From: Zanthoxylum bungeanum
Taxonomy: Eukaryota > Streptophyta > Magnoliopsida > Sapindales > Rutaceae
Assembly (NCBI GenBank): GCA_019454045.1
Contig: SKCR01034826.1
Location: 1 to 64,000, forward strand
Direction: 5' to 3'
DNA length: 64,000 nucleotides
The notes beneath the pieces were generated by a model that saw only the letters and a list, made by a program, of their open reading frames with translations, was not told the origin of the DNA and made no database searches. Of this stretch, positions 27,573 through 63,693 are shown in pieces; within the stretch, counting starts at the first letter, position 1, and each line of letters opens with the position of its first letter. Made by a program: the position numbers and the translations under genes.

Positions 27573-27960
27573 TGTTGGGGTTGGTGCTCAGAGCACCAAT
27601 TCCCTGTAGTATTTCTTTGAGAATACTTCTGTAAAACGTTATTATTATGAATAATATATGCAGTTTCTATCATATAATGTATCTTTTAATATGGTAAAGA
27701 TGTAATGACCTTAGAATGACTAGTCATGATGCTATTGCAAAAGCGTCGCAACTGACATTGAGTTGTATCATGACGTTGTCATTCTCAGACAGTTCTTGGT
27801 CAAGGTTTACACTACTTGGTCAGTAAAGTAAACCCGTTGAGACCAGTACATATCATATGCTGAAATATATTATTTTAATGGTTTCTCAATGAACCATCAG
27901 TCTTGGAGACTCGTATAGACATGTAGGTGTTTATAGCGGATAAATACTGAACGATTCACC

Positions 27961-28004
27961 GAAGATTCTTAATGGATGGTACACAAACGTCAATAAGAAT
28001 CTTC
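27961..28004 (+). other. Conserved LTR hairpin, Y 5' copy
   Basis: Perfect 11-bp arms GAAGATTCTTA (27961-27971) and TAAGAATCTTC (27994-28004) around ATGGATGGTACACAAACGTC. Confidence 0.65.
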
Positions 28005-28769
28005 TCGGGTTGAGTAGCATTTGTGATTCTTAGACTTGAGATGCCACTGTGGGCACATGAGACATCTTCTAGAATTAGAAGGCAGTCACGTCACCGATCT
28101 ATTTAGATCAGACCTCCGCATGTTCGTTGGGTATGGATAGATCCTCAGGGTGTCCTGTGTGTATCGAGATAAGATCCGTTAGTTCTGTGTATCAGAGCAT
28201 AGGTAGTCCATATGATTAGCAATCAGATAAAAACCATGTGCCCGTGGTACAATTTAGAAGTTAGTTCTAAATATTCTTTTTGAGATTGATAATAGAGACG
28301 TCGACGGGATAATCCTCATAGAGATTTGACATTTACATCTATATCTCTGGGATATATCCGGATACCTGTGACAGAGGAATTATACATATGCCATGACCTC
28401 GACCTGTATGATTCAGCGAGTTTATACGTGGTCGTCATAATTTACAGGTGGGTAAATTATGGACACGAAATTGGATTTCGTGACGGATATGCCTGAATCT
28501 ATAGAGTCTCACTAATGAAATATACTCGTAGAGTACTAGGGCAACATTTATAAATAATAGTGATTATTTATAAGTCGTTTAAAGGTTAAACGAAAAATAC
28601 ATGCGATAAGACCTAATAGTCATTTCCTAATTTTTGTGTATTTGCATTTAATGTTAGATTTTATCAAATACACATTAATTAATTGTCAAATTGAGATATT
28701 TGACTAATATCATAAATATATATGTATTTGATATTTAATGTAAATATAATACATATATTTATATATTTG

Positions 28770-28890
28770 TATTTAAATAATTATTTAATTATTTAATTGT
28801 TAAATAATTAAATAATTATTTAATTGTTAAATAATTAAATAATTATTTAATTATTTAATTGTTAAATAATTAAATAATTAAATTAATTAA
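28770..28890. repeat. Palindromic TTAAATAATT array in the Y 5' LTR
   Basis: Units of TTAATTGTTAAATAATTAAA alternate in both orientations. The 3' LTR has a much shorter version near 46845-46880, so the array grew or shrank after insertion. Confidence 0.75.
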
Positions 28891-29670
28891 AAATATAAAT
28901 ATCTAAGGTTATGATATTTTAATTTAATGACTTAAAGATGCTTTACTTGACTTGTTGAATAAGCTTTAAATGGTTAAATGATAAAGTAAACAAGTTGATA
29001 AAGCATTTAAGTGAAACAAAAAAAATATCTAGATATTATATATGCATACAAGTTTTGGCCATGCCCATTTTTGTAGGTATATATTGTTTGTTTCATTTTT
29101 AGGGTTTCATAAGTTTGATAACACAAAAATATAACACAAAAGAGAGTTAAGAGCAAAAAGTTGAAGAAAAGGAAAAAGGCTTGGAAAAAGCTTGTTTTTG
29201 TAAACATTTCTTCTTAACCTTCAACATGAAATATGTTTCTTACATGCTTAGCTTCATTTTGTGATGCTTTGATGTTCTTTCTACTTTTATAGTTTGTGTT
29301 TATTTGTTTGAGAACTTGGATGAAAGATTCATGTATGTAAGTAGCCTTGAAATGGTTTCAAAGGCTTACTTGGATGAAATCTGATTTTGATGCATTAGAT
29401 ATGTTGGAAAACATTTTAGAAATGATTTAGAATCATCCAAAATTATATTTGATAATTTTTGGGCTAAAATAATCAATTTACAAAGTTTTGGGGCAATTCG
29501 ATAATTACCAAGAAATTTGATCTCTTGTGTAATTTTTCAGAATTTGATAAATGGATAATTAAATAAATAATTTTATTTGATTAATTCGAGAAAAAGTTTT
29601 GAAATCGGAAATTTTGATTTTCCACCGTTCCGCTGCGTTACCGGATTTCCATCATAAAACCACTTCAAAA

Positions 29671-29682
29671 TGGTATCAGAGC
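29671..29682 (+). other. Primer-binding site of element Y
   Basis: TGGTATCAGAGC, complementary to the 3' end of initiator Met-tRNA, three bases after the LTR end at 29667. Confidence 0.9.
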
Positions 29683-29689
29683 GAGTCTG

Positions 29690-32674
29690 ATTCTGGACAC
29701 CCTAATATGATCGATTTTATCGATCAACTGAGGCAACATAATCTCATTCTGAATGACATTCTCGGTAGGAGTGTCATTCTTGGTTCACTCCCAGCTTCTT
29801 ATCGCCAGTTCGTGATGTACTTCAACATGAACGAGATTATCTGTACCTACCAAGAGCTACATAGGATGTTGCTCACGGCGGAAGAGGACCTCAAGAAATG
29901 AGTATTGACTCGCCCTCCAAGACCTACTTCACTTTCTGCTCCTTTCCAGACTTGTTCAAAGGGAAAGAAGAAGAAAGGGAAGAAGAATAAGAGTCTCGGT
30001 CCTCAACCACACGCAAAGATAGCAAAGCCCAAGAAGGCTTCTGAAGACAAGTGCCATCACTGCAGCAAAGTCGGGCACTGGAAAAGGAACTGTCCTGACT
30101 ACATTGCCCAGCTGATGTGGGAGAGAGCATTGGCATCATGTACATTTATTTTTCCAGTTATTGATATATCTTTGGCTTGTGAAGCCGTTACATCCACCTG
30201 GATTTTAGATTCTGCTTGTCCCATTCACATTTGTAATTCATTGCAGGTGCTGAAGGAAAGTAGGAAACTGAAGCCTGGAGAGATGCAGTTGCGGTTCGGG
30301 AGTGGAGACTCACTGGATGCAGTTGCAATGAGAGTATGCGATATCCCTTTACTGAAATGGACACTTTTGTTAAATGATTGTTATTATGTACCTGGATGTG
30401 TAGCTAATATTATATCACTTTTTGTATTGGATACATAAGGCTTTCGTATTAATATTAAGAACTGTTCTTTGTATTTATATGATAAAAGTAATATTCAAAT
30501 CCTTTGTTTTCCAAACCAGCATAGTCATTATACATTGCAAACTTCAAAAGATATTTTAAATACTGGAGTTAATAAACGTGGTTTATCTGTAATTAATAAT
30601 ACTGAACTTTGGCATATGCGGCTGGGTCACATAGGCGTTAAAAGCCTTACCCAATTGGTTAGGAATGGTTTGATACCAGATCTTACCATTTTATCCTATC
30701 CAACTTGTGAATCCTGTATTCATGGTAAGATGACCAAAGCCCCATTTTCTGGTGTTGGACACCGCATCACTAACTTACTGGAACTCATACATTCTGATGT
30801 ATGTGGTCCACTAAGTCAGACTGCTCACAGTGGTTATTTGTACTTCGTTACCTTTACCGATGATCTGTCACGATACGGTTATGTCTATTTGATGCGACAT
30901 AAATCGGAAACCTTTGAAAAGTTCAAAGAGTTCCGAAATGAAGTAGAAAAACAAACTAACCAATATATTAAATGCCTTCAATCTGATTGAGGTGGTGAAT
31001 ATATGAGTGGTGAGTTCATGGATTATATGAAGGAGAATGGGATTCTCGCTCAATATACTCCTCCAGGTACTCCACATCACAATAGAGTGTCTGAGAGGAG
31101 AAACCAGACTTTATTGGATATGGTCCGATCAATGTTGAGTTTCACAGATTTGCCCTATTACTTATGGGGCTACTCTCTTTTAACAGCTGCAATCTTTTGA
31201 ATAAGATTCCTTCAAAAGTTGTTCTTACGACTCCGTATGAGATATGGTTCGGTAGGAAACCAAATCTTAGTTACATTAAGGTTTGGGGTTTTCTTGCCTA
31301 CGTCAGGGTGACTCAGCAAGATAAGTTTTCGCCTCGAGGGTAAAAGTCTAGGTTTGTCGGATATCCTTCGAATACGAGGGGATATATGTTCTATGATACC
31401 GAGCATCGAAACGTGTTCGTAGCTCGCTTCGTAAAATTTCTAGAAGTAGAATTTTTATCAGAAGGTGGTAATCATAGACAGGTTGAACTTGATGAAGTCC
31501 AACCTGAAAACAACGAACCAACGGAGGAACCTGAAGTTCAAGTAGATGAAGGACCTTTAACACACACACTCCGTATGTCAGAAAGGATATCTAGACCTCA
31601 TGAACGCTTGTATTTGATACAAGAAAAGAGTCTAGATATTCTCTTAGTAGAAGAGACTGATCATTTCACCTATAGAGAATCGATGTTGGACATCGACTCC
31701 GTGAAATGGCAAAGTGCCATGAAATCCGAGTTAGACTCAATGCATGAAAATCAAGTTTGAGACTTGGTTCCGCTTCCCGAAGGAATTGTTTCTATCGGTT
31801 GTAAATGGGTTTACAAGAGGAAGTGCGGGCCTGACGCTAAGGTTGAAACTTACAAGGCCCGACTGGTAGCAAAATGTTACACGCAGCGACCTGGCGTCGA
31901 CTACGATGAAAATTTTTCACCAGTTGCAATGCTAGTCTATTCGGATTTTACTTTCTATAGCTGCGTATCATGACTACGAGATTTGGCAAATGGATGTCAA
32001 AACGGCTTTTCTAAATGGATTTCTTGATGAAAAAATCTATATGGAACAGCCGGAAGATTTTGCGTCCAGCGAAAACTCGGGTATGGTATGTAAGCTTAAG
32101 AAGTCCATTTATGGACTTAAACAAGCTTCACAAAGTTGGAATCTTCGATTAGACGAGATTATTAGATCGTCTGGTTTTCTCAAGAATTCGGAAGAATCAT
32201 GTGTATATCAGAAAGCCAGTGGGAGCATGGTCATATTTTTAGTCCTATATGTTGATGACATCCTAATCATTGGGAATGATTTAAGTATGTTACAAAGTGT
32301 CAAAGCGTACCTCTGTAAGAATTTCTCCATGAAGGACCTGGGAGAAGCTTCCTATGTTTTAGGGATAAGACTCTATAGAGATAGACAAAGGAAGCTGATT
32401 GGGTTATCCCAATCAACATACATAGATAAGATCTTGGAACAGTATAATTTTGGTAATTGTAAGACAGCAAACATACCGTTCAGACATGAGATTCATCTTT
32501 CAAAGAAGATGAGTCCACAAACAGAAGATGAGAAGGTTAGAATGTCTAACCAACCTTATGCTTCGTGTTTGGGTAGCATAATGTATTCCATGTTATGTAC
32601 GAGGCCTGATATCAGTTTCGCTGTTAGCGTAACTAGTCGATATCAGTCCAATCCAGGTAATGACCATTGGATGG
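29690..32674 (+). pseudogene. Copia gag-pol of element Y, 5' part (gag fragment, protease, integrase, RT)
   Basis: Gag begins abruptly about 60 bp after the primer site at its C-terminal part (GSLPASYRQFVMYFNMNEI near 29780-29840), so most of Gag is missing. A TGA at 29899 follows. The next frame has a CCHC knuckle (CHHCSKVGHWKRNC, near 30050) and the protease site WILDSAC, with Ala where the family has Gly. The GAG-pre-integrase motif LWHMRLGH lies near 30610. Integrase follows (IHSDVCGPL, FTDDLSRY, then SD-stop-GGEY at 30988, where Arg is probably replaced by TGA). Reverse transcriptase (KWVYKRK, DVKTAFLNG, YVDDILIIG near 32250) runs to 32674, where Z is inserted after RYQSNPGN. Further stops at about 31198 and 31758. 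Not functional. Confidence 0.9.
32670..32674 (+). other. Target-site duplication of element Z (left)
   Basis: GATGG, repeated exactly at 45068-45072. It restores continuity of the Y reading frame into MAIKHILKYLKGT. Confidence 0.9.
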
Positions 32675-32889
32675 TGATGAGTGGTAAATGTATCAATATT
32701 TCTCACTCATTTGACCTAATATTTTGAATAGATTCTTAAGTTTTGTGAATATTTTGATGCGTTTTGTGTTATTTTGTAGATAAATAAAGTTTCAGGACTC
32801 TCTGGATGTGATTTGGGGCCAAAAAAGTGAAAAACGGACAAAATGGCAATTTGATAATTTTGCGCGTCGCGACACCTAACATGCGCCAT

Positions 32890-33300
32890 GAGTTGCTAAC
32901 GTCCGCCAGGGGATACGTGTCAGAATCTGAAAAATTTGACTTGTTAACGTGCGTTGTGACACGTGTCAACATCACAGCCGATCTGCTAACGTGTGCCGTG
33001 CCACGTGTCATCATCCTATGGTGCGCCATCACCACGTGTCGCCACGTGTAAGCCACGTCATCATCCACATTAGTAGTAGACCGAGTCAACTCACCACGTC
33101 GGCGCCACGTCATCATCAGCCAATCACAGCGTGCCATGTGTCCCAATCCTACGGTGCCGACAATCACTTTCGCCATGTCATCGCCACATAATTGCCACGT
33201 CAGCACAATTATTGAGTCAATTATCCACATTACCACGTCATCGGATAAGAATCTGAAGCAGCCAACCAGAGCGCGACACGTGGCGTGTCACGACGCGAAG
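32890..33300 (+). promoter_or_regulatory. G-box / ABRE / ACGTCA cluster in the Z U3
   Basis: At least five CACGTG cores (ACACGTGTC near 32959, CCACGTGTCA 33001, CCACGTGTCG near 33033, CCACGTGTAA near 33042, ACACGTGGC near 33277) and about five CCACGTCA/CCACGTCG sites lie within 400 bp. They end just upstream of a TATA box. Such sites bind plant bZIP (ABF, TGA) and bHLH factors and mediate abscisic-acid, light and stress responses. The 3' LTR has the same cluster at 43227-43640. Confidence 0.65.
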
Positions 33301-33319
33301 CGCACACCTTATCGAGGCC

Positions 33320-33329
33320 TATAAATTCA
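33320..33329 (+). promoter_or_regulatory. TATA box of the Z 5' LTR
   Basis: CTATAAATTC preceded by GAGGC. Identical at 43671-43680 in the 3' LTR. Confidence 0.65.
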
Positions 33330-33599
33330 GCTCGAGGTTTCATTTTCAGATGTACCTTTCTCTCTGAATTCTCTGATGTAAATAAGGAGTTTTCATATCT
33401 AGTTTATTTTAATATCAGTTTTGTAATTAATTTTAATTACGTTCTGTAATAATAATTTACTTTCTTTATTTTTTCAGTTTTTACTATTCAACATGAGGAG
33501 GTAACTTCCCCTGCTAGGTTGAAAGGTAAAACTTTTATTACTGCTATTTAGATTAATCTCCCTTAATTATAATATATTCACTATTTAAAATTTGACTTA

Positions 33600-33805
33600 A
33601 TGAGGATACCGCTATATTGGCCGGTTGGTAATTGATATTAAATTGATTTTAATTTGACTAAGCAAGGATACCGCATGGTTGGTCGGTTGGTAATTTACCA
33701 CATATATGGCAGGTTTATGGACAAATATTACCGCCTTAATGCCTGGTTGGACTTAATTTGAATTAATCAGGTTACCGCATATATGGCTGGTTGGTAATAC
33801 TATCA
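33600..33805 (+). repeat. Four spaced TACCGC...GGTTGG(TAAT) motifs in R/U5 of Z
   Basis: TACCGC, a few variable bases, then TGGxxGGTTGGTAAT (third copy GGTTGGACTTAAT), near 33606, 33668, 33729 and 33773, about 45-60 bp apart. The 3' LTR (43960-44150) and both A LTRs (54540-54690, 62360-62500) have counterparts. Confidence 0.7.
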
Positions 33806-34722
33806 CAAGTTAATATATTATATTAAGGGAGATATCTAAAATAGTAGTAGTAAAAGTAGATCCTTTAACCCTAGCATTTTATTTTATTATAAATTTACTT
33901 TTCAGTATTTACTTTACCAAACTTACTTTTCAGCATTTTTACTTTATGTCTTTTACTTTTAAGTTTTTACTAGCCCTAGTTATGTGTCATAACTAAGTTA
34001 GTTATCTAGGGTTGTGATGAATTCTAATATCACCGGTTTATAAGGGGTTATTTTATAGTTTTGGTAATTTAAAGGTTTACTTATTAAGTCTTAAGCTTAA
34101 TGCGTCATGTTAATTGGCCACTAATAAGATTGATCTGGTAAATCTAAAATAAACTTGACAAATGAATTTTAGGTTTCAGCCTTAGACTTAGTAGCCCACG
34201 ATCTTCCTTGAGGATAGATAACTCCTTTAATAGATTTCTTTACAGGATAGACATATACCTGTCGGGCGGGGGTAACCATAATTGGAACTTAATCTTAATG
34301 AATCCGGGTAATTTGGTTGACATAGACATATGGTTCAATTGAGTTATACTGGGTATTTGCATCTGACCATCGACAGAGGCTTTTGCATAATTTCGTGTTC
34401 CAGGTTAGTAAACCGATATATTACACAAACATGAAATAACCACTTCATTTTAATTAGATATTGGAAGAAATCACAACCTGGATAGTTTTATAAATTTGAA
34501 TTTTCCTCAACCTATTTTGCGCAATTTTATTTACTTGTTTTTAAATTTAAAATCATCATTATTCCCAATGAATCAATCGACCTGTTAGATACTAGTAATC
34601 ATTTGACCTCATAAAATTAATAGATTAGATATTAAGTCCTCGTGGGATCGATACTTTTTATACTACTTGAATGATACGTGCGCTTGCGTTATACGTGTGT
34701 GATTACGCACCGGTCAAGTTTT

Positions 34723-34740
34723 TGGCGCTGTTGTCAGAGA
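34723..34740 (+). other. Primer-binding site of element Z (mutated)
   Basis: TGGCGCTGTTGTCAGAGA, a decayed form of the TGGCGCCGTTGCCGGGGA Asp-tRNA site typical of Athila. It starts 6 bases after the LTR end. The A copy at 55814 is nearly intact. Confidence 0.8.
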
Positions 34741-34830
34741 CTTATTTATCTTTCAATATTAGTTTTGAGGTTAGATACCTTTACTTGTATCTAATTTCTT
34801 TTTACTTATTATTTATGTTTTCTTGTGTTT

Positions 34831-34833
34831 CAG
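34831..34833 (+). other. Candidate splice acceptor before Z gag
   Basis: A pyrimidine-rich stretch ending TTCTTGTGTTTCAG/GTTCTC precedes the gag ATG at 34849. Same in A at 55922-55924. Possible leader intron. Confidence 0.35.
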
Positions 34834-34848
34834 GTTCTCAAACACTAT

Positions 34849-36494
34849 ATGAGACGAACCAGAAGCTTTGAACTCAGACCGTTTGACCCGGAAATTGAAA
34901 GAACCATCAGACAGTTGAGAAGGGAAAGGCGAGAAGGCCAAGAAGCTTTAATCAACATGGAACCTGAACCTTTAGAGGTTGCACCACCAATATCTATTTG
35001 AGACAGAACCATTCCGGTGGTCAACGGCTTCATTTCCTGTATTGTACTTCCTCCTTTACCAGAAAATGCGTGTGACATCTAAACATGCATTCAGATGATT
35101 CAGCAGTCAGTGCAATTTGGAGGAAAAGCAATTGAAGATCTTAATACCCACATCAGCAACTTCCTAGAAGTTTGCGACACTTTCAATTACAACTGAGAAG
35201 CTGAAGAAGCTATGAGACTGCGTGTTTTTCCATACTCATTGAAAGACAGAGTTAAAGCTTGGCTACATTCACTACCAGCAGGTTCCATCACAACTTGGAA
35301 CACTTAGCCACCAAATTTCTTGCAAAATACTTTCCACCAGCCAGAACTGAAAAGCTGAGGAATGACATCACATCCTTTGTACAACAAGACTCAGAAAATC
35401 TCTAAGAAACTTGGGAAATGTACAAAGATTTGATCCGGAAATGTCCTCACCATGAGATTCCAAAATGGCTTCAAGTCCAAACTTTCTATAATGGACTTTC
35501 TGGACTGATGAGAACCACAATCGATGCTGCTGCTGGAGGAGCTTTGATGGCAAAAGGAGAAGATCAAACCTGAGACCTAATCGAAGAAATGACCAACAAT
35601 AATTCCTTGTGGCCAACAGAAAGAAGCATGATCCAAAGAATTACAGGAATTTATGAAGTTGGAGCCAATACAGCAGTCAACGCCAAGCTGGATTAGATAT
35701 GTAAATTCATGGAGACTCTCAGCACTCAAAGCAACATTGGAACTACAAGTTCACCATATGGAGGAGCACCAGAACCAAACCAACTTGAAGAGACGGTTAA
35801 TTATGTCAATAATTTCAACAGACAGGGGAACAATCCATATTCCAACACCTACAACCCATTGAATCATCCCAATTTTTCATGGGGCAATAATTCAGGGCAA
35901 AAGAACAATCCACCACCTGGATTCCAACAGCAGAACTATCCACCACCAGGATTTCAACAACAGAACAAAGGCCATGAACATGAAAAAGAACCATAAATGA
36001 AAGAATGGATTGCAGAGATGTTCAAAAAGCAACAAGCAGCATATGATGCTATATTTCAAAGCCAATCTGCTTCCATCAAAGCACTGGAGAATCAAATTGG
36101 ACAACTGGCCAATGCTCAGAGTTACAGACCACCAGGAAATCTTCCCAGCAATACAGAACCAAATCCAAGGAACGGAGGGAAGGAGCAATGTCAAGCCATC
36201 ACCTTGAAAAGCGGTACTGAAATCAACAAAGATGTTGGAATCAAGGCAACAATTGAAGAAGTTCCAAAAGATGCAGTTTCACAGATGGAGGAAAAAGAAG
36301 CAAAAGAAAAAGAAATAGATCAGATCATTCCACCTCCACATTTTCCTCAGCGTCTTCAGAAAAACAAACTGGACAAGCAGTTTGCTCGATTCCTAGAGGT
36401 TTTCAAAAAACAACACATCAACATCCCATTTTCAGAAGCCTTGGAAGAAATGCCCAGCTATGCCAAATTCATGAAAGATATTCTTTCACGAAAA
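34849..36494 (+). pseudogene. gag: Athila-like Gag of element Z, many stops
   Basis: Starts MRRTRSFELRPFDPEIERT, then the acidic segment EALINMEPEPLEV and the retrotransposon Gag core (HISNFLEVCDTFNYN, AWLHSLPAGSITTW near 35260-35300; WLQVQTFYNGLSGL near 35470). The Pro/Gln/Asn-rich region is near 35870-35960 (PPPGFQQQNYPPPGF) and the C-terminal stretch at 36360-36494 (RFLEVFKKQHINIPFSEAL). In-frame stops occur at about 34998, 35080, 35194, 35570 and 35995, and there is a frame change near 35306. Homologous to 55940-57560 of element A. Confidence 0.85.
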
Positions 36495-36500
36495 TGAAGA

Positions 36501-37024
36501 TTGGGAGATTACGAGACAGTAACATTGACGGAAGAATACAGTGCCATTATTCAAAGGAAACTTCCCCCGAAGTTGAAAGATCCTGGCAGTTTTACTGTCC
36601 CATGCACCATTGGAGAACATTACATCGGTAAGGCTTTATGTGATTTAGGTGCTAGTGTTAACTTAATGCATTTTTCTATTTACAGGAAACTGTAAATTGG
36701 AGAAGTAATGCCTATATCAGTCTCAGTACAACTTGCTGATCGAACGCTCGCATTTCCGAGAGGAGTCGTTGAAGATGTCCTGGTCAAAGTTGACAAACTC
36801 ATTCTCCTAGTAGATTTCATTATCCTAGACAAAGATGTGCCTATCATCATTGGGAGACCATTTTTGGCAACATGTCGAACTGTGATTGATGTACAAAAAA
36901 GAGAACTAACCATGAAAGTTCAGGACCAAGAAGTTACCTTCAATGTTTTCAAAGCCATGAAATTCCCAAGTGAAGAAAATGAGGAAGAATGTTTCAGAAT
37001 TGATGCTGTTGATAGCCTCATCTA
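36501..37024 (+). pseudogene. Aspartic protease region of element Z
   Basis: LKDPGSFTVPCTIGEHYIG, then the active-site-like CDLGASVNLM (near 36640) and the distal IIIGRPFLAT (near 36850). A TAA at about 36693 interrupts the frame. The catalytic DLGAS form is usual for Athila proteases. Confidence 0.85.
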
Positions 37025-37309
37025 GGATATTGATACAACTCCCACGGACAAACTTGAAGCTTGCATCACCAACATGACTGACAGCGAGCTAGATGTTGAA
37101 ATCCTGGAATGTATCAACTACCTTGACAAACCATTCCGATTCAAATCAACACCACCAGTTGAAAGTCCGGAACTGCTAAAAAAGATCGAATCAAGCCTTC
37201 GATTGAAGAACCACCACAACTGGAGCTGAAGTTACTTCCGAGCCATCTCAGGTATGCATTTCTTGGAAACTCTTCTGAATTACCTGTTATTATTTCTTCT
37301 TCGCTAACA

Positions 37310-38760
37310 TTGGAGCAGGAAGAAAAGTTGTTAAGAGTATTACGAGAACACAAGAGAGTCATTGGCTGGATTATAGCAGACATTCGAGGCATTAGTCCAT
37401 CATTTTTCATGCACAAGATTCTGATGAATGATGAGTACAAACCCACAGTGGAGCATCAACGGAGACTCAATCCAATCATGAAGGAGGTCGTGAAGAAAGA
37501 AATCATCAAATGGTTGGATGATGACATCATATACCCCATCTCAGACAGCACTTGGGTAAGTCCTATGCAGTGTGTACCGAAGAAAGGAGGAATTACTGTT
37601 GTCACCAATGAAAAGAACGAGCTGATTCCAACAAGAACAGTGACTGGATGGAGAGTATGCATGAACTACCGGAAGCTGAAAAAAGTAACAAGGAATGACC
37701 ATTTCTGCTACCATTTATTGACCAGATGTTAGATAGACTGGCGGGACATGAGTTCTATTGCTTTTTGGATGGATATTCAGGATACAATCAGATTTCCATC
37801 GCCCCAGAAGATCAGGAAAAAACCACATTTACATGTCCCTATGGTACTTTTTCTTTCCGCAGAATGCCATTTGGATTATGTAATGCTCCCGCCACATTTC
37901 AGCGTTGCATGATGGCCATTTTCTCAGACATGCTGGAGCAGAGTATGGAAGTTTTTATGGATGACTTCTCTGTGTTTGGAGATTCTTTTGACCACTGTTT
38001 GCAAAATTTGGAACATGTGTTACAAAGATGTGAAGATACGAACCTGGTACTCAACTGGGAGAAATACCACTTCATGGTATAGGAAGGCATTGTTCTTGGA
38101 CATAGGATCTCACAAAAGGGAATCGAGGTAGACAAAGCAAAGATCAAAACAATTGAGAAATTACCTCTACCAACATCAGTCAAAGGGATTCAGAGCTTTC
38201 TTGGACATGCTGGCTTTTACAGGATATTATCAAAGACTTTTCCAAGATTGCTAAACCTCTATGCAATCTCTGGAGAAGGATGTGTCTTTCAACTTCACTA
38301 AAGATTGCCATGAAGCTTTTGAGATCTTAAAACAGAAGCCGCTCTCTGCCCCCATCATTTTAGCACTAGACTGGACCCTTCCATTTGAGGTCATGTGCGA
38401 TGCTAGTGATTTTAATGTAGGTGTAGTTTTGGGACAACGCAAAGCAAAGATTTTCCACACCATCTACTACTCCAACAGAACTTTGAATGAAGCTCAACTC
38501 AACTACACAACCACTGAAAAAGAGTTGCTCGCAGTTGTGTACGCTTTTGACAAATTCCGCTCCTATCTACTGGGTCCTAAAGTGGTGGTCTACACAGATC
38601 ATTCAGCAATCAAATACTTGATCACGAAGAAAGATGCCAAACCCAGATTGATCCGTTGGATACTTCTTCTGCAAGAATTTGACGTGGAGATCAGAGACAG
38701 GAAAGAGACAGAGAATCAAGTGGCAGATCATCTATCGAGGCTTGAGAATGGAGAAACAGC
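37310..38760 (+). pseudogene. Reverse transcriptase and RNase H of element Z
   Basis: RT motifs: WVSPMQCVPKKGG (near 37552), MNYRKLKKVTRNDHF, FLDGYSGYNQI, FRRMPFGLCNAPATFQ (near 37858) and the catalytic FMDDF (near 37957). A frameshift near 37730 and a TAG near 38080 break it. RNase H follows ([15 protein letters not shown] near 38390, [29 protein letters not shown] near 38593, then ADHLSRLE near 38727). All catalytic-type motifs are visible, but no continuous frame spans them. Element A has lost this region. Confidence 0.9.
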
Positions 38761-40139
38761 TGGCAAAGAACTGACAATCAAAGAAACTTTTCCAGATGAA
38801 CAGCTGTTTGTCATGAAACAGCAGGATGTCCCTTGGTATGCTGACTATATCAACTTCATTGTATCAGGAAAATGGCTGTTGGAATGGACAACTCCGCAAA
38901 GGAAAAAGTTCTTCAAAGAAGTCAAGCACTATGTCTGGGATGAGCCGTACCTGTTCAAACGATGTGCTGATCAATTATTGAGGCGTTGTGTTCCACAGGA
39001 GGAAATCAACAGTGTTTTACAGCACTGTCATTCATCACCATATGGCGGACACTTCAGCGGGAATAAAACTGCAGCCAAAGTCCTACAATCAGGTTTATTC
39101 TGGCCCACTCTTTTTAAAGATGCTTATCTTTTTGCTCTTCAATGTGACAGGTGCCAGAGAACATGGAATATTTCGAGGAGAAATGAAGGACCATTGCAAA
39201 ACATTCTGGAAGTATAGATATTTGATGTGTGGGGTATTGATTTTATGGGACCCTTTGTTCCATCATTCGGAAACCTGTACATCCTGGTTGTTGTAGACTA
39301 CGTCTCCAAATGGGTTGAAGAAATTGCACTGCCATCCAATGATTCAAAAGTGGTGATCAAATTCCTGAAAAAGAACATTTTCACTCGGTTCGGAACACCT
39401 AGGGCAATTATCAGTGATTGTGGCTCACATTTCTCCAACAGATACTTTGATGCACTCCTATCCAAATATGGAGTTACTCACAAGGTTGCCACTGCTTATC
39501 ATCCACAGTCAAATTGACAGGTTGAAGTTTCAACAAAGAAATCAAAAGAATCTTGGAAGAACGTTGGATCAACAAAGAGGGACTGGTCAACAAAACTGGA
39601 TGACGCATTATGGGCCTATTGGACAGCTTACAAGACACCCATTGGTATGTCCCCATATCGATTGGTGTTGGGAAAACATGTCATCTGCCAGTTGAGCTTG
39701 AACACAAGGCGTACTGGGCACAGAAGAAGTTGAATCTTGATTCACAAGCTGCATGAGAGAAACGACTTCACAAGCTCAACGAATTGGAGGATTTTCATCT
39801 ACAAGCTTATGAGAATGCCAGATTGTACAAAGAAAAGACCAAGAAATGGCATGACCGAAAAATAGTGCACAGACAGTTGGAACCAAGGCAGCATGTGTTG
39901 TTGTACAAATGAAGGTTGAAACTTTTCCCTGGAAAGTTGAAATCAAGGTGGTCAGGTCCTTTTGTGATCACTCAGGTTTTCCATATGGAGCTGTTGAGTT
40001 ACTGGATCCCAACACCAACAACACATTCAAGGTTAACAGTCAGCGTGTCAAGCACTACTGGGGAGATCATTTGAGCGACAAAAAGAAAGTGTCACACTTT
40101 CAGATCCAACCTAACGTTCGGGCAGTCACGTCTAGCTGA
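38761..40139 (+). pseudogene. Integrase of element Z
   Basis: Zinc-binding domain (H...H...CDRCQR near 39015-39155), core with the first Asp in GIDFMGPF (near 39236) and the second in IISDCGSHF (near 39407), then HPQSN followed by TGA at 39516. TAG near 39216 and frame changes after 39520 disrupt the rest. The C-terminal part reads FPWKVEIKVVRSF and VKHYWGDHL, ending at 40137-40139. The corresponding C-terminus survives in A at 58180-58520. Confidence 0.88.
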
Positions 40140-40251
40140 CGACGTTAAACTTAGCGCTCGCAGTGAGGCAACCCATACAATTTGTGTATATATTATGATT
40201 TGGTGTGTTTTATTTTTTGTGTTTAATTTTTGCAGGTAAAGTCATTTCACG
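40140..40251 (+). promoter_or_regulatory. Post-integrase linker with conserved hairpin motif and splice acceptor, Z
   Basis: GACGTTAAACTTAGCGCTCG is followed by GAGGCAACCCAT, a motif I associate with Athila elements after pol. A pyrimidine-rich stretch ends TTTTTGCAG/GTAAAG at 40233-40235, 17 bp before the ATG of the next frame. It could serve a spliced mRNA for the downstream genes. Confidence 0.5.
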
Positions 40252-40830
40252 ATGGAAGAAGCTCTCGCAAATCTTCACAAGTAATTTCCTTCTCTCCCTC
40301 AAAAATCTCTGATGAAAGTCTACAAAGCTCGCTTGGAATGGATGAGACTGTTGATGATCAAAGGTATTCCAACTGACATTCGTTGGATTATTGAAGCACG
40401 GGTCCGATTGGCAGGTGAGTCTTCTGAATCTTTTATTTCACATCTATCTGGTTTTGGAAGAAGCACCTATGCAAAGGAAACGTAGAGCTAAGCAAATGGG
40501 TGTTTGTTACAAATGTGCACGCTGGAATTGCAATACTCGTTGTCGTTCTTTAGGAATGGTGTCTGATAATCGCGAAGAAAAAATTAAATTCATTAGGGAT
40601 GGCTTGAGTAAGTAGTCTGTAGATGATATATCTTCAACTCTTGAGACACATCCCAGTGGATATGTTCATATAGCCATTCCCAAATTACATACACAATTCC
40701 AAAAAGAAAGACAACTGTTAAGTCTCGGGAATCTGACTCAAAAAGACCTTGTTTGCCAATTTATAAGAAAATTGGATGGGAAGCTTGTCCCTGATGCATC
40801 GACGTCAATCAAGCTGTAAATTCTTGCACA
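40252..40830 (+). pseudogene. Cysteine-rich basic protein gene carried by Z, broken
   Basis: Collinear with the intact frame at 58659-59348 of element A. Broken by TAA at 40288-40290 and by lesions near 40470-40485 and at 40615-40617. Recognisable parts are SLMKVYKARLEWMRLLMIK, RWIIEARVRLAGES, a Cys cluster (VCYKCARWNCNTRC) after a basic stretch, and GMVSDNREEKIKFIRDGL. See the A copy for interpretation. Confidence 0.75.
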
Positions 40831-41051
40831 TATTATATCTCTTTGTCTTTTCCTAATAAATGTGAATTGGTTTGTAGTTTTCTTTTATTTTCTCCGACAG
40901 GATCTAGATCTTTTTTACTATCACGATTTATTTTACTATTTAACTAATAATTGTCATTTGGCAGGTACTAGTGCTATTATTTTTACTCACCCTTTTCAGG
41001 TGTTATAAATTCAACTCATCATTGCACTTTTGAAGATATCCAGAGTAAAAC

Positions 41052-41700
41052 ATGGAAGCACTTCAATGAGACGAGTTGAAAACATTTCTGTGTTTTGCGG
41101 TACTATTGTTGGTGTTAAACCACAATACATAGAAGCAGCACATGAATTGGATCGAGTCTTAGCTACAAGAATATGCACTTAGTATATGGCGGAGGCAATC
41201 TTGGACTAATGGGGATTGTTTCAAAGGCCGTACAGGAAGGAGGTAGTCAAGTTTTGGGAATCATTCCAAAACCCTTGGCGGAGGCAAATCTTATTGGACC
41301 ATCAAACGAGAAGAACTATTGTGCCAGGTATGTCTGAACGACTGGTAGAAATGATTAACCGTGCTGATGTTTTTATTGCTTGCCAGGTGGCTTGGGTACA
41401 TTGGAGGAAATGTTTACAGTGTTATCTTGGGCGAACCTGAACATACACCAGAAACCGCTTGGACTGTACAACGTTGAAGGATTTTATGATTTTCTTTGTG
41501 TGTTTCTTGATGATGCCCGGAGAAATGGGTTCGTGTCAAAACCTTTAAAAGAACTCCTCTTCACTGCCAGAACTGCTCCGGATCTAATTGACCAAATCTT
41601 AGCCTATGAACCACAAATTGACCCTATCCTTTCAAAGATAAATTGGTCCGAGGACGATCGTGGTAAGAGGCGTCGGATTAATCCGGATCTTAACCTTTAA
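41052..41700 (+). pseudogene. LOG-type cytokinin-activating enzyme gene captured by Z, broken
   Basis: The last 107 codons are open (41380-41700), including GTLEEMFTVLSWANLNIHQK and ELLFTARTAPDLIDQILAY. Upstream, the N-terminal CVFCG region, YGGGNLGLMG and the AEANLIGPSN region are recognisable in shifting frames. Several stops and indels occur between 41064 and 41390, including loss of a base within the PGGLGT motif (around 41383). Same extent and terminus (INPDLNL) as the A copy at 59456-60132. No introns separate the parts, although host LOG genes normally have several, which points to capture of a processed RNA. Confidence 0.88.
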
Positions 41701-41759
41701 CTTTTCGTGTAGAATTTCAGTTAACCAGGTTTATCTTCTAAACTCTTCTTCTATTGTTT

Positions 41760-41781
41760 AAGACATTGGGGACAATGTCTT
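41760..41781 (+). other. Perfect stem-loop after LOG in Z
   Basis: AAGACATTG, loop GGGA, CAATGTCTT. Followed by TTTAGGTTTGGGGGAGG, a polypurine-like tract. Present in A at 60190-60211. Similar ATTGGGGACAAT motifs recur in Athila elements as I remember them. Confidence 0.75.
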
Positions 41782-42228
41782 ATTTAGGTTTGGGGGAGGA
41801 AATTAGTTGATCAGTATCTTGTTTTTAGTTGTGTGTTGTTTTATTTTTAGTCCAAAAGTTTTCGAAAAATACAAAAAAATTGAAAAATTTTCAAAAATTA
41901 CAAAAATATTTTGCATTTTTGTTTTTATTTTGACTAAAAAGGTGAAATTGGTGAGAGATAGATGTGTAAGGAGTTCCCATTCCTGATACGTATTTCAACC
42001 CATTTTCGAAACAAGTTAATTTTTGTTTATTTCCTTTTGAATTATTTAATTTGTAAATTCTCCATAAAATTGACTAAAATGGATCTTCATATGCTCAGTT
42101 GGCAGGTATTATCAACATGCATGGTAACATACAGACATGAGCTGTAATTGAAAAGTTTGTAATATTCAGTGCTCTATTTTAATTGGAGGAAGCATCTATG
42201 AAAAGCATTGGAGTAAAAAAAAACGTTA

Positions 42229-42470
42229 TGAGATCCGAGTTATTAAGTCTGTAGGGGTGTTTTAACACTTAGTGCCCTAAAACCAACTGGTTTGGGAGTC
42301 ACTGGCCCAAAGCTCGCTACATGGATCAAGGATGTTGCAAAAATATATATATCTGAAGTCTGAGTAATTAAGTCTGTAAGGGTGTCTTAACACCTGGTGC
42401 CCTAAAGCCAACTGGTTTGGGAGCCACCGACCCAACACTCGCTACATAGATGGAAGATATTATATATAAA
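42229..42470 (+). repeat. Tandem duplicated ~125-bp structured element in the 3' region of Z
   Basis: Two units each contain TTAAGTCTGTA, a hairpin GGTGT...ACACC or its variant enclosed by AGGG/CCCT, then CCAACTGGTTTGGGAG and CCCAA, then CTCGCTACAT. Same duplication in A at 60664-60893. Confidence 0.7.
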
Positions 42471-43011
42471 TAAAAAAATCAAAGAAAAAAATCAGAAAAA
42501 TGAGAAAAATTATTCCACTGCTGCAAAAAGGTGTGAATCTGATAAAACTTTATGACAAAAATATTACTCTCTTATCAACTGCACTTGTGACTGTTGTGGG
42601 CAAAAATGAGTTGATTAATATTTTGTTGGCTATATATATGGAGAATGGTAAATATAATCGGAGAATTTACTTTTTCGGTAATTTAGAAAGAAAGAAAACA
42701 ACTAGTGACTTGGAGTAGAAGTTTCACCTGATTAGTCACTAACTTCTTTATTCTCTTTTCTATTGTCTTTTTGCTTTTGTGTGCATTAGTCTCACTACCT
42801 TTTTAATTTTGTAAAATATTTGTGGGTATCATTGTTGTAAACCCTCACGAGACTACAACTCGTCCACTAAGGACACCTGGGGGTTTAAAGGCTTGTTGCA
42901 TACGCTAAATGCAACCGTGATCCCTACGAAAGTGGCTTAGTTTTAAAGATGTTTATGTTATTTTATTCTGTAGTTTGCTCGAGGACTAGCAAAATTTTAG
43001 GTTTGGGCGTG
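42471..43011 (+). other. 3' untranslated end of Z with polypurine tract
   Basis: Non-coding AT-rich DNA. A 72-codon frame at 42500-42718 is not preserved in A. The tract TTAGGTTTGGGCGTG (42997-43011) lies directly before the 3' LTR. Confidence 0.65.
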
Positions 43012-45067
43012 CGATGACTGGTAAATGTATCACTATTTCTCACTCATTTGACCTAATATTTTGAATAGATTCTTGAGTTTTGTGAATATTTTGATGTGTT
43101 TTGTGTTATTTTATAGATAAATAAAGTTTCAGGACTCTCTGTAGGTGATTTGGGGCAAAAACAGTGAAAAACGGACAAAAGGGTAATTTGGTAATTTTAC
43201 GCGTCGCGACGCCTAACATGCGCCATGAGTTGCTAATGTGCGCCGGGGGACACATATCAGAATCTGAAAAGTTTGACTTGCTAACGTGCGTCGTGCCACT
43301 TGTCAACATCACAGCCGATCTGCTAACGTGCGTCGTGCCACGTGTCATCATCCTATGGTGCCGACAATCACCATCGCCACGTGTCGCCATGTGTCACTCT
43401 ACGTGTCAGCCACGTCATCGTCCATATCAGCAGTAGACCGAGTCAACTCGCTACGTCAGCGCCACATCATCATCAGCCAATCACAGCGTGCCACGTGTCG
43501 CAATCATACGGTGCCGACAATCACTTTCGCCACATCATCTCCACGCCATCGCCACGTCAGCACAATTATTGAGTCAATTATCCACATCGCCACGTCATCG
43601 GATAAGAATCTGAAGCAGCCAACCAGAGCGCGACATGTTGCGCGTCGCGACGTGCACTCCTTACCGAGGCCTATAAATTCAGCTCGAGGTTTCGGTTTCA
43701 GATGTACCTTTCTCTCTGAATTCTCTGATGTAAATAGGGAGTTTTCATATCTAGTTTATTTTAATTTCAGTTTTGTAATTAATTTTACTTACGTTCTGTA
43801 ATAATAATTTATTTTCTTTACTTTTTCATTTTTTACTATTCAACATGAGGAGGTAACTTCCCCCTGCTATGGTGAAAGGTAAAACTTTTATTACTGCTAT
43901 TTAGATTAATCTCCATTAATTATAATATATTCACTATTTAAAATTTGACTTAATGAGGATATCGCTATATTGGCCGGTTGGTAATTGATATTAAATTGAT
44001 TTTAATTTTACTAAGCAATGATACTGCATGGTTGGTCGGTTGGTAATTTACCGCCTATATGGCAGGTTTATGGACAAATATTACCGTCTTAATGGCTGGT
44101 TGGACTTAATTTGACTTAATCAGGTTACCGCATATATGACTGGTTGGTAATACTATCACAAGTTAATATATTAAATTAAGGGAGATATCTAAAATAGTAG
44201 TAAAAGTAGATCCTTTAACCCTAACATTTTATTTTATTGTAATTTTACTTTTTAGTATTTACTTTACCGCACTTACTTTTCAGCATTTTTACTTTATGTC
44301 TTTTACTTTTAAGTTTTTGCTAGCCCTAGTTATGTGTCGTAACTAAGTTAGTTATCTAGGGTTGTGATGAATTCTAATATCACCGGTTTATAAGGGGTTA
44401 TTTTATAGTTTGGGTAATTTAAAGGTTTACTTATTAAGTCTTAAGCTTAATGCGTCTTGTTAATTGGCCACTAATAAGATTGATCTGGTAAATCTAAAAT
44501 AAACTTGACAAATGAATTTTAGGTTTCAGCCTTAGACTTAGTAACCCACGATCTTCATTGAGGATAGATAACCCTTTAATAGATTTCCTTACAGGATAGA
44601 CATATATCTGTCGGACGGGGGTAACCATAATTGGAACTTAATCTTAATGAATCCATGTAATTTGGTTGACATAGACATATGGTTCAATTGGGTTATAATG
44701 GGTATTTGCATTTGACCATCGACATAGGCTTTTTGATAATTTCGTGTTCCAGGTTAGTAAACCGATATATTACACAAACATAAAATAACCACTTCATTTT
44801 TAATTAGATATTGGAAGAAATCACAACCCTTGATAGTTTTATAAATTTGAATTTTCCTCAACCTACTTTGCGGAATTTTATTTACTTGTTTTTAAATTTA
44901 AAATCATCATTATTCCCAATGAATCAATCGACCTGTTAGATACTAGTAATCATTTGACCTCATAAAATTAATAGATTAGGTATTAAGTCCTCGTGAGATC
45001 GATACTTTTTATACTACTTGAACGATACGTACGCTTGCGTTATACGCATGTGATTACGCACCGGTCA
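43012..45067 (+). repeat. 3' LTR of element Z
   Basis: About 2,056 bp, direct repeat of 32675-34716. The first base is C where the 5' LTR has T (CGATGACTGG). It includes the G-box cluster and TATA box. Confidence 0.88.
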
Positions 45068-45632
45068 GATGGCCATTAAACATATCCTGAAGTATCTAAA
45101 AGGTACCTAGGATAAGTTAATAATTTATGGAGGAAACGAACTGCAAGTTAACGGGTATACGGATTCCGATTTCCAATCGGATCCCGATGATAGAAAGTCT
45201 ACATCTGGATTCGTATTTACCCTTAACGGAGGTGCAATTTGTTAGAAGAGTTCCAAACAGGGATGGACAACAGATTCCACCACTGAGGCGGAATACATTG
45301 CAGCTTCTGAAGCTGCAAATGAAGCTGTGTGGATAAAGAACTTTGTCACAGAATTGGGAGTTGTCCCAAGTATCGAGAATGCGATTCCGTTATACTGTGA
45401 TAATACTGGAGCCATTGCGCAAGCAAAGGAACCGAGGGCGCATCAGAAGTCGAAGCATGTGGAACGAAAGTACCACATCATTCGAGAGATTGTGTCCCGA
45501 TGGGACATTATCGTGTGCAAGGTACCGAGTGAAGATAATGTAGCAGACCCGCTGACGAAGGCCATACCTCCGAAGTTGTTTGATAAACACATGGAGTCGA
45601 TGGGTATTAGATACAATCGTTATTGGCACTAG
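45068..45632 (+). pseudogene. Copia RT end and RNase H of element Y, 3' part
   Basis: Starts with the right-hand GATGG duplication and resumes the RT frame (MAIKHILKYLKGT). RNase H follows: YTDSDFQSDPDDRKSTSGF, a TAG near 45242, then TTEAEYIAASEAANEAVW, PLYCDNTGAIAQAKEPRAHQ and DNVADPLTKAIPP, ending at 45630-45632 (RYNRYWH). The stops show the copy is inactive. Confidence 0.9.
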
Positions 45633-45648
45633 AGCAAGTGAGAGTTTT
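45632..45648 (+). other. Polypurine tract of element Y
   Basis: GAGCAAGTGAGAGTTT directly before TGTTGGGGTT. Confidence 0.7.
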
Positions 45649-48027
45649 TGTTGGGGTTGGTGCTCAGAGCGCCAATTCCCGGTTGTATTTCTTTGAGAAT
45701 ACTTCTGGAAAACGTTATTATTATGAATAATATATGCAGTTTCTATAATATAATGTATCTTTTAATATGGTAAAGACGTAATGACCTTAGAATGACTAGT
45801 CATGATGCTGTTGCAAAAGCGTCGCAACTAACATTGAGTTGTATCATGACGTTGTCATTCTCAGACAGTTCTTGGTCAAGGTTTACACTACTTGGTCAGT
45901 AAAGTAAACCCATTGAGACCAGTACATGTCGTATACTGGAATATATGATTCCATTGATTTCTCAATGAACCATCAGTCTTGGAGACTCGTATAGACGTGT
46001 AGGTGTTTATAGCGGATAAACACTGAACGACTCACCGAAGATTCTTAATGGATGGTACACCAACGTCAATAAGAATATTCTCGGGTTGAGTAGCATTTGT
46101 GATTCTTAGACTTAAGATGCCACTGTGGGCACATGAGACATCTTCTACACTTAGATGGCAGTCACGTCACCGATCTATTTAGATCAGACCTCCGCATATT
46201 CGTTGGGTGTGGATAGATCCTCAAGGTGCCTTCTGTGTATCGAGATAGGATCTGTCAGTTCTGTGTATCAGAGTATAGGTAGTCCATATGATTAGCAATC
46301 AGATAAAAACCATGGGCCCGTGGTACAATTTAGAAGTTAGTTCTAAATATTCTTTTTGAGATTGCTAATAGAGACGTCGACGGGATAATCCCCATAGAGA
46401 TTTGACGTTTACATCTATATCTCTAGGATATATCCGGATACCTGTGACGGAGGAATTATACATATGACATGACCTCGACCTGTATGATTCAGCGAGTTTA
46501 TACGTGGTCGTCATAATTTACGGGTGGGTAAATTATGGACATGAAATTGGATTTCGTGACGGATATGCCTGAATCTAGAGAGTCTCACTAATGAAATATA
46601 CTCGTAAAGCACTAGGGCAACATTTATAAATGATAGTGATTATTTATAAGTCGTTTAAAGGTTAAATGAAAAATACATACGATGGGACCTAATAGTCATT
46701 TCCTAATTTTTGTGTATTTGCATTTAATGTTAGATTTTATCAAATACACATTAATTAATTGTCAAATTGAGATATTTGACTAATATCATAAATATATATG
46801 TATTTGATATTTAATGTAAATATAATACATATATTTGTATTTAAATAATTATTTAATTATTTAATTGTTAAATAATTAAATTAATTAAAAATATAAATAT
46901 CTAAGGTTATGATATTTTATTTAATGACTTAAAGATGCTTTACTTGACTTGTTGAATAAGCTTTAAATGGTTAAATGATAAAGTAAACAAGTTGATAAAG
47001 CATTTAAGTGAAACAAAAAAACATCTAGATATTATATATGCATACAAGTTTCGGCCATGCACATTTTTGTAGGTATATTGTTTGTTTTATTTTTAGGGTT
47101 TCATAAGTTTGATAACACAAAAATATAACACAAAAGAGAGTTGAGAGCAAAAAGTTGAAGAAAAGGAAAAAGGCTTGGAAATAGCTTGTTTTTGTAAGCA
47201 TTTCTTCTTAACCTTCAACATGAAATATGTTTCTTACATGATTAGCTTCATTTTGTGATGCTTTGATGTTCTTTCTACTCTTATAGTTTGTGTTTATTTG
47301 TTTGATAACTTGGGTGAAAGATTCATGTATGTAAGTAGCCTTGAAATGGTTTCAAAGGCTTACTTTTGATTCTTTAAAAATCAAAGTTGACATTCTAGAG
47401 TTAGTAAGCCACTCCTTGGTGACCTAGAATTGTTTTAGAGTTATTTCAAAGTGGTGAGACTTGTTTGGTGAAGTATTGAATGGATTAAAGTGTTGGATTT
47501 TGTTAATTTGGTGAAATTGGACAATTTGATAAAATTGAAAAATTAGGGTTCATAACCCACTCCAAATTTGAGGCTTTTCATATATGTGATGTATTATGGT
47601 ATGAATATGATGCATGTAAATTTTTGGGTTGATTGGATTTGATCTTGGCATGTTTTGAACAAAATGGACCAAAATGTAATTACTTGAAAGTTTTGGGTAG
47701 TCACAACAATTTGGGAAAAATTGGGGATTTGTGTGAAATTTGATTTTGATGAATTAGATATGTTGGAAAACATTTTAGAAATGATTGAGAATCATCCAAA
47801 ATTATATTTGATAATTTTTGGGCTAAAATAATCAATTTACAAAGTTTTGGGACAATTCGGTAATTACCAAGAAATTTGATCTCTTATGTAATTTTTCAGA
47901 ATTTGATAATTGGATAATTAAATAAATAAGATTATTTGATTAATCCGAGAAAAAGTTTTGAAATCATAAAATTTTGATTTTCCACCATTCCGATGCGTTA
48001 CCAGATTTCTGCCATAAAACCCATTCA
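45649..48027 (+). repeat. 3' LTR of element Y
   Basis: 2,379 bp, ends CCCATTCA. Hairpin copy at 46037-46080. It retains a block near 47364-47735 that the 5' LTR has lost. Confidence 0.9.
46037..46080 (+). other. Conserved LTR hairpin, Y 3' copy
   Basis: GAAGATTCTTA and TAAGAATATTC (one mismatch) around GGATGGTACACCAACGTC. Confidence 0.6.
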
Positions 48028-52533: not shown

Positions 52534-53599
52534 TGTTAGGGTTGGTGCTCGGAGTGCCAATCCTGATCGTATTTATGTCCGATTCATAAATACGAGCAAT
52601 TATAATTTCCATAATATTACTAATTTTAGTGGTAGCACCCTTGTCTTTTATACGCTTATTCGATCTAATCATGATTAGATATCTGATTACGATTAGATCG
52701 AAACTGAATCTGATTCAGTGATACGTGTATGTTAGATAAAGACCATATGATTTACAGTATAGTGCGTAGTTACAATGTAGTTTGTAATTGACATTGGGAA
52801 GCGCACTATTAGTTGTATATCCTTAAATAAAGTTCCTGGTCAAGATTTGCTAACACGGGTCGGTTAGTAAAATCAGATGAGACCAGTACATATCGTATAT
52901 CGTGACTTGGTCCGATGGTTTATCCCAGTGAACCATGAGTCTCGGGAGACTCGTATAGACATGTAGGTATTTATTTGATAAGACACTGAACGACTCACTG
53001 AAGGTTTCCTAATAGATGGTACACCAACGTCAATAGGAACCTTCTCGAGTTGAGCGAGTATAGTGGTCATTAGACTTGAGATACCACTGTGGATATATGA
53101 GCTATCTTCCACACTTTGATGGAAGTCACGTCAACGATCTAGTCATGATCAGACCTCCGCCTGTTTGTTGGGTGTGGACTGATGCTCATGATATCCTGTG
53201 CATATCAAGATAGGATCCTGTCAATCCTGTGTACAAGGCATAGGCATCCAGCACGTGTTTACGATCTAGTAAATCCATGATCGTGGTATAACTTCGGAAA
53301 TCAGTTTCGAGTGTTATTTAGAGATTATAAATTGAAAGTCGAATGTATTATACCGAACGGATTTGACGCTTTGATCTATATCCCAGGTATAATACGGATA
53401 TCCTGTGACGGATGGATTATACGTATGCTATGACCTCGACTTGTATAGTTTAGTGATATTATTCATGGTCGTCATAATTCATGAGTGGGTGAATTATGGA
53501 CACGAAATTGGATTTCGTGACGGATAGACCTAAACTTAGAGAGTCCTACAATATGAAGTGTACTCGTTGAGCACTTGGGCAACTTGATATGAATAATAC
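52534..53599 (+). repeat. 3' LTR of element X, left part
   Basis: Starts TGTTAGGGTTGGTGCTCGGA. Hairpin copy at 53000-53044. Interrupted by A after AATAC (53595-53599). Confidence 0.85.
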
Positions 53600-54209
53600 T
53601 GATGAGCGGAAAATATATCAATATTTACCGCCCCTTTTACTTAATATTTTGTTTAGTTTCTCGGGTTTGATGAACGTTTTGATGTGTTTTAATTTCTTTT
53701 GCAGATAAAATAATATTGGGACACAATGAAATCATTTAGGACGAAATGTGGGTCAAATAAGGGCAAAAATTGGACTTGACATATTAATTTTGGAGATTGG
53801 AAACTTGAAAGGACGTTTTAACGAAGTGCATTTTTGGAAATTCCAGTTTTGCATGTGTCGTATTTTTTTTAACTATTTACTCCAATATCGGATTGAGCTG
53901 ATTCAAGTTCCAGATTAAAGAAAACTCAAAGATATCTACAACTTTGAAAAACAAAATAATTTCGAATTCTGAATATTTCATACCGAAATTGATGAACCAT
54001 CCAGAAGTTTGTTGTGTGTAATTATTAAAGTCATTTTCAATCATTTTCAAAGCAAAAAATAAATTAATAAATAAATAATAAAAATTATCAAATCACCACC
54101 AAACATGATAAGTAATTAGTGGATAAATTAATAATGGATTTGGTGGAGCAATTAGTGGAGCAATTAATAATGGATTTGGTGGATGATTTGATGGAGGCAA
54201 AATTTTGCC

Positions 54210-54219
54210 TATAAATACC
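54210..54219 (+). promoter_or_regulatory. TATA box of the A 5' LTR
   Basis: CTATAAATAC preceded by TTTTGC. Repeated at 62031-62040 in the 3' LTR. Confidence 0.65.
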
Positions 54220-60132: not shown

Positions 60133-60189
60133 TTTCCTGTAGAATTTCAGCTAACCATGTATTATCTTCTAAACTTTTTTCTATTGTTT

Positions 60190-63688: not shown

Positions 63689-63693
63689 AATAC

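Follow-up and report, generated by a model that had tools for sequence, protein, structure and literature searches.

Two Athila-like elements with similarity to LOGL4 were reportedly found by Steinbauerova in 2011. According to the available text of PMC9289625, a YgdH/LONELY GUY (LOG) domain occurs in Ty3/gypsy elements of Citrus and, when a looser filter was applied, also in those of P. trichocarpa, in line with Steinbauerova 2011. The same text describes orchid Ty3/gypsy elements with an m6A demethylase ORF, a host-type enzyme domain that was acquired as an extra ORF and retained while the elements diversified (PMC9289625). In the part of PMC6317226 that was available, 21.4% of the surveyed extra ORFs of plant retrotransposons were similar to a known domain type.

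A stretch of 64,000 nucleotides of Zanthoxylum bungeanum DNA (contig SKCR01034826.1, positions 1 to 64,000, forward strand), referred to here as the window, harbours two related Ty3/gypsy elements, Z and A, each with a LOG-derived gene. The initial annotation of this locus had considered hormone-gene cargo in an LTR retrotransposon very unusual. Since the YgdH/LONELY GUY domain has already been published for Ty3/gypsy elements of Citrus and Populus (PMC9289625, available text), LOG cargo as such is not new. The LOG-family domain is common to those elements and the present ones, whereas the partner gene for a protein resembling a viral nucleic-acid-binding protein (NABP), the LxLxL tail and the changed substrate pocket are features of the present elements that go unmentioned in the available text of that paper. 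The orchid elements resemble Z and A in carrying a conserved host-type enzyme domain as extra ORF, but the enzyme and the lineage are different, and the available text mentions no second, virus-type gene (PMC9289625). Among the papers listed for the literature searched, which covers few subscription journals, none was found to mention the NABP-LOG pair, the LxLxL tail or the altered pocket. The locus carries cargo of a known type in a novel form, with a virus-type partner, a tail and a pocket change. One 3' region is resolved into two identifiable genes with testable functions, one linking the elements to plant RNA viruses and the other to a host hormone enzyme, and the LOG part carries what appears to be a record of stepwise remodelling. 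The role of env-position genes in plant Ty3/gypsy elements, an old question, thereby becomes directly testable, and homology of the first gene to its viral counterparts would show a gene common to RNA viruses and retrotransposons.

Two elements with a LOG-derived gene

Element Z (32675-45067, + strand) is a Ty3/gypsy element, probably of the Athila type, with LTRs at 32675-34716 (5') and 43012-45067 (3'). Element A (53600-63688, + strand) belongs to the same Ty3/gypsy family and has its LTRs at 53600-55807 and 61457-63688. Both are flanked by perfect 5-bp target duplications, GATGG for Z (32670-32674 and 45068-45072) and AATAC for A (53595-53599 and 63689-63693). The two LTRs of Z show a substitution divergence of 5.56% over 2033 columns, those of A 3.92% over 2167 columns. 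The pol pieces of Z (37699-39514, + strand) comprise the RT (37699-38079; Pfam RVT_1, 6e-24), RNase H and the integrase zinc-binding domain within 38255-39217 (RT_RNaseH, 9.7e-35; Integrase_H2C2, 1.5e-10) and the integrase core (39218-39514; rve, 2.8e-18). This order of RT, RNase H and integrase is of the Ty3/gypsy type, and it is followed in Z by LOG and the 3' LTR. The pol block of Z, at approximately 37006-39672, has no counterpart in element A, whose gag was found in the frames 55916-56482 and 56350-56709. After the 5' LTR a primer-site-like sequence, TGGCGCC...GGGGA, was read, which we take to fit tRNA-Asp, as is typical of Athila. The Pfam profile Athila ORF-1 (PF03078) gave no match in the scanned frames of the window. 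It is not required for an Athila assignment, since only 16% of Athila elements were found to have it in the available part of PMC6317226. A AGGTTTGGGGGAGG stretch is located about 100 bases 3' of LOG and about 1.2 kb ahead of the 3' LTR, and a second, similar purine-rich stretch directly adjoins this LTR.

The LOG-derived gene of Z is located at 41052-41700 (+ strand), with its ATG at 41052, a PF03641 match (1.3e-19) on 41368-41697 and the tail GKRRRINPDLNL. Its counterpart in A is located at 59456-60132 (+ strand) and has the tail GKRRRINLDLNL, ending in LDLNL. The initial annotation had placed a LOG-type gene between integrase and the 3' polypurine tract of Z, and both GTLEE and NIHQKPLGLYNV are indeed read there. 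The family assignment was borne out by the stop-free frame 59524-60129 of A, which matched PF03641 (5.6e-36), TIGR00730 (6.5e-44) and the Arabidopsis LOG-family structure 2a33 (At2g37210; 4.5e-51) with scores far above chance. No gap of intron size was found in the LOG frame, in agreement with the earlier description of a gene without introns. Because this intron-free gene occupies an equal position in two separate insertions, it is element cargo and not a chance insertion, as had been proposed. Other parts of that description were corrected. At the start of the range 40252-41700, in which LOG (41052-41700) had been named, lies a separate gene (40252-40819) that had been missed. Furthermore, LOG is present in both elements but neither copy is intact, as the gene is broken by small frameshifting indels in Z and by a 23-bp tandem duplication (59524-59570) in A.

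Z is apparently nested in a Ty1/copia element (27572-47365). A copia RT frame (31990-32727) stops at the insertion point of Z, the sequence 3' of Z continues, judged by eye, like a copia frame, and a repeat pair (27572-29371 and 45648-47365, 91.4%) is found on either side. Both LTRs of A harbour arrays of a 14-base, TTTACTTTTCAGCA-like unit, at 54786-55035 (~18 copies) and 62619-62915 (~21 copies). Each unit looks like a 3' splice acceptor, and shorter traces of the array are seen in Z at 33892-33971.

The virus-type gene 5' of LOG

Directly 5' of LOG lies a gene for a protein of ~182 amino acids that matches the nucleic-acid-binding/silencing-suppressor protein encoded by carlaviruses and allied viruses. 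In Z (40252-40819, + strand) it is broken by stops and a frameshift, and tblastn with P0001 recovered it in two pieces (40252-40479 and 40475-40798). In A (58659-59195, + strand; ORF 58647-59348) the gene is open almost to its end and then runs into another frame. The A frame was likewise matched by P0001 in tblastn, and it exceeded the cut-offs of two Pfam families, with 25.1 bits against 23 for PF05515 and 24.5 bits against 20.9 for PF01623. At E<=0.01, PF01623 was matched by 26 and PF05515 by 23 of the 28 relatives scanned. In the element protein as in the carlavirus cysteine-rich protein/NABP (PF01623, PF05515), a four-cysteine finger comes after a basic motif. Among relatives of at least 165 amino acids the four-cysteine pattern was present in 93/110 and the basic motif in 88/110; the window's A copy has another residue in place of the fourth cysteine. 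The element protein differs from the carlavirus NABP by its greater length, another cysteine spacing, an extra conserved C-terminal part and its location in a retrotransposon. Long relatives share a median pairwise identity of 63% (5460 pairs). The NABP-like and LOG parts are joined in one predicted protein in Citrus (P0116) and Rhamnella (P0110), and the N-terminus of P0132 looks, by eye, like the NABP-LOG spacer of the window.

Instead of reflecting shared descent, the likeness to flexivirus NABPs might be due to convergent evolution of a basic motif and a cysteine finger, which would be compatible with the other readings of the locus but is considered unlikely. The motifs are short, the two pieces of P0016 stayed under the cut-off when scanned alone, and the finger spacing is unlike the C-X2-C-X9-C-X4-C of PVH given in the available part of PMC3689765. 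Nor are the fold matches significant: Foldseek searches yielded 0/34 matches at E<=0.001 against BFVD for the first model (pLDDT 58) and 0/16 at the same threshold for the second, better model (pLDDT 70.6), which had one NABP-type match. The proposed homology to the viral proteins does not rest on these fold matches. Against convergence stand the two Pfam families scoring above cut-off and the PF05515 match of P0047, which spans residues 6-122; moreover, going by their names, 22/34 of the weak matches obtained with the first model were NABP-type proteins of flexiviruses or betaflexivirus proteins. Two scans of IMG/VR, in which a single NABP-like protein and its alignment served as queries, revealed no relative (in one of them 600 pattern matches, 0 confirmed).

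Pocket, tail and relatives of the LOG-derived protein

With the plant type-I LOGs (AtLOG3; PDB 2a33) the element protein shares the family, the PGGxGTxxE motif and the catalytic Arg and Glu; the A copy retains this motif together with the catalytic Arg, Thr and Glu. Unlike AtLOG3, the A copy has Ser and Leu in place of the His and Lys that surround the catalytic Arg, and Ile in place of the pocket Glu. In addition, the element gene has a basic and LxLxL tail and no introns. Residues were read in 118 of the nearest 120 LOG relatives (of 1231 found). The catalytic Arg was present in 109, the Thr in 114 and the catalytic Glu (Glu178-equivalent) in 112 of these, with all three in 99/118. The pocket Lys and pocket Glu (Glu181-equivalent) are both gone in 110/118 and both present in 8/118, and never was one found alone. 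In the standard LOGs (the best 120 of 7998) both are present in 120/120. The comparisons with AtLOG3 in the available part of PMC5379747 (Met, His, Trp) agree with the alignment of the relatives.

The product had been expected to make active cytokinin. An ordinary cytokinin-activating LOG as cargo, providing more active cytokinin so that the cell keeps dividing, would fit the LOG-family matches and the complete catalytic set of most relatives. It would also fit the eight relatives with the standard pocket pair (P0139, P0155, P0156, P0157, P0158, P0166, P0179 and P0211), seven of which are in the tree described below, where all seven branch early; a cytokinin role is possible above all for such early-branching members. 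The loss of both pocket residues in the other 110 relatives and in the A copy argues against it, as does the finding that replacement of the equivalent Lys by Ala abolished the activity of CgLOGII, a bacterial LOG (PMC5379747, available part). The A frame also scored 105 bits with the specific NCBI model for cytokinin riboside 5'-monophosphate phosphoribohydrolase (NF058542), well below its curated cut-off of 300. With the pocket Lys and Glu lost, and this Lys indispensable to the activity of a bacterial LOG (PMC5379747), the claim of active cytokinin is doubtful, and this explanation has a low probability overall. As judged from the protein sequences, a captured hormone-activating LOG gene has since been rebuilt, and simple hormone production is probably no longer its role. 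The catalytic Arg is replaced in 8/96 LOG relatives, namely P0131, P0132, P0134, P0137, P0143 and P0150 as well as P0223 and P0233. The first six form a subgroup in which it is changed to Gln. Since the catalytic Arg is replaced there, an enzyme role is argued against in this subgroup, possibly a pseudoenzyme branch.

LxLxL is the established form of the EAR motif, a repression motif that binds TOPLESS-type corepressors, and KKRK-like clusters are typical nuclear signals. Among the 98 full-length relatives (of the nearest 120 of 1231), a basic cluster was found in 92 and a strict LxLxL within the last 24 residues in 79. With a slightly looser pattern, the basic cluster followed by an LxLxL-like (EAR-like) tail was scored in 83/98 of them and in 0/120 standard LOGs; it is absent, as scored, from 15/98. 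The standard LOGs (best 120 of 7998) showed the basic cluster in 1/120 and LxLxL in 0/120. A quick tree of 105 rows needed 6 changes for the tail as scored and 3 for the basic cluster.

The nearest 120 of the 1231 relatives are at most ~59% identical to Arabidopsis LOG3. A tree was made of 37 of these 120 plus the fused proteins P0110 and P0116, long rows whose placement in a LOG tree is unsure, and 33 of the best 120 of 7998 standard LOGs. The 39 element-like rows formed one side of a branch with support 100/100 versus the 33 standard LOGs. On this evidence the nearest relatives stand apart from the standard plant LOGs; because the standard set (best 120 of 7998) holds, by names and tree, LOG1/3- and LOG8-like rows, some other host subfamily may be closer to the element LOGs. 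P0179 has both the pocket pair and the LxLxL tail, and branches next to the remaining relatives. Because the carriers of the pocket pair branch early and P0179 with its tail adjoins the rest, the tree suggests that capture was followed by gain of the basic tail, then of the LxLxL tail, and finally by loss of the pocket pair.

The tail and the pocket changes would be of host origin if a family of host LOG paralogues with an LxLxL tail had been captured once or more. Annotation of some relatives as LOGL10 in Populus, and the composition of the standard set just described, are in line with this scenario, which is nevertheless rather improbable in view of the multiple divergent clusters found within single genomes (Reevesia, Paulownia), the odd gene models (P0139 duplicated, P0157 interrupted) and the NABP fusions P0110 and P0116. 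In Reevesia the LOG relatives lie in 4 clusters among the matches listed, and the gene names point to three chromosomes. Like both copies in the window and the fusions P0110 and P0116, the remaining relatives would presumably reside inside elements.

Selection, splice signals and a possible role of the two genes

In nucleotide-aligned comparison, Z and A differ at 9, 9 and 16 of 186 first, second and third codon positions of LOG and at 23, 13 and 30 of 179 each in the NABP-like gene, showing a weak third-position excess in both. Divergence between Z and A is lowest in LOG (0.063), followed by the 3' untranslated stretch (0.091) and the NABP-like gene (0.129). Ka/Ks values from tblastn-mapped codons (LOG 0.577, NABP 0.361) were dropped, as the mapping crossed out-of-frame stretches of Z. 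The higher divergence of the NABP-like stretch compared to LOG and the 3' untranslated stretch may hint at recombination between element sublineages.

The case for function is made by conservation among the relatives, as read from their sequences, and not by selection between the two window copies. An inert passenger, a captured and decaying mRNA functionless for the element, would agree with the two broken copies and the weak selection signal between them, but it can hardly be expected, because open frames would scarcely persist so long without function, and long relatives of both genes do persist (median pairwise identity for LOG 60%, 4560 pairs, besides the value for NABP given above) and have for the most part retained the cysteines, the tail and the catalytic residues.

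A pyrimidine-rich sequence resembling a 3' splice acceptor, TTTTTGCAG (40200-40235, + strand), is located 16 bases 5' of the ATG of the NABP-like gene of Z, and its counterpart in A ends at 58642 (+ strand). Two further acceptor-like sequences precede LOG in Z (40950-40999, + strand), TTTGGCAG ending at 40964 and CTTTTCAG at 40999, and their counterparts in A end at 59369 and 59403 (+ strand); all were recognized by eye. Because acceptor-like sequences precede both genes in both copies, we infer that they may be used for splicing of subgenomic RNAs, like those of retroviral env.

The explanation tentatively preferred here, with somewhat less than even confidence, is that the interval from integrase to the 3' LTR is taken up by a two-gene accessory cassette that acts on the host. 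Gene 1, with its basic motif and four-cysteine finger, would be kin of the carlavirus-type NABP. Gene 2 would be a plant LOG taken up as a spliced copy and later rebuilt; it has retained the phosphoribose-hydrolysing centre, gained the basic cluster and LxLxL (EAR-like) tail and, in most members, lost the Lys and Glu of the adenine/prenyl pocket. Both proteins would be expressed via spliced subgenomic RNAs and would act in the nucleus. Viral NABP relatives were found to block silencing or to switch on growth genes (PMC3689765, available part), and gene 1 might similarly bind RNA or DNA, so that silencing is blocked or growth genes are turned on. The gene 2 protein could recruit a TOPLESS-type corepressor, hydrolyse a nucleotide outside the standard cytokinin set, or do both. 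Together, the two proteins may bias the host cell in favour of the element. Several observations speak against this explanation: the broken state of both genes in the window, the weak third-position excess between Z and A, an NABP-like gene that diverges more than the 3' untranslated stretch, the loss of the catalytic Arg in 8/96 relatives, the non-significant fold matches and the 15/98 relatives scored as tailless. A wider proposal, which must be called doubtful, is that an LTR retrotransposon lineage has kept, in rosids and asterids alike, an effector cassette consisting of a flexivirus-type NABP and a nuclear, TOPLESS-recruiting LOG-derived enzyme with new nucleotide specificity, used in a virus-like way to counter silencing and to influence the state of the host cell, and that the NABPs of flexiviruses and retrotransposons have a common source.

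Elsewhere in the window an uninterrupted TPR-repeat frame of 353 amino acids (6351-7412, - strand) was found, possibly a host gene. Dense tandem repeats with units of 30-143 bases occupy 8320-10068, next to a gag-like frame at 10620-11438 (- strand).
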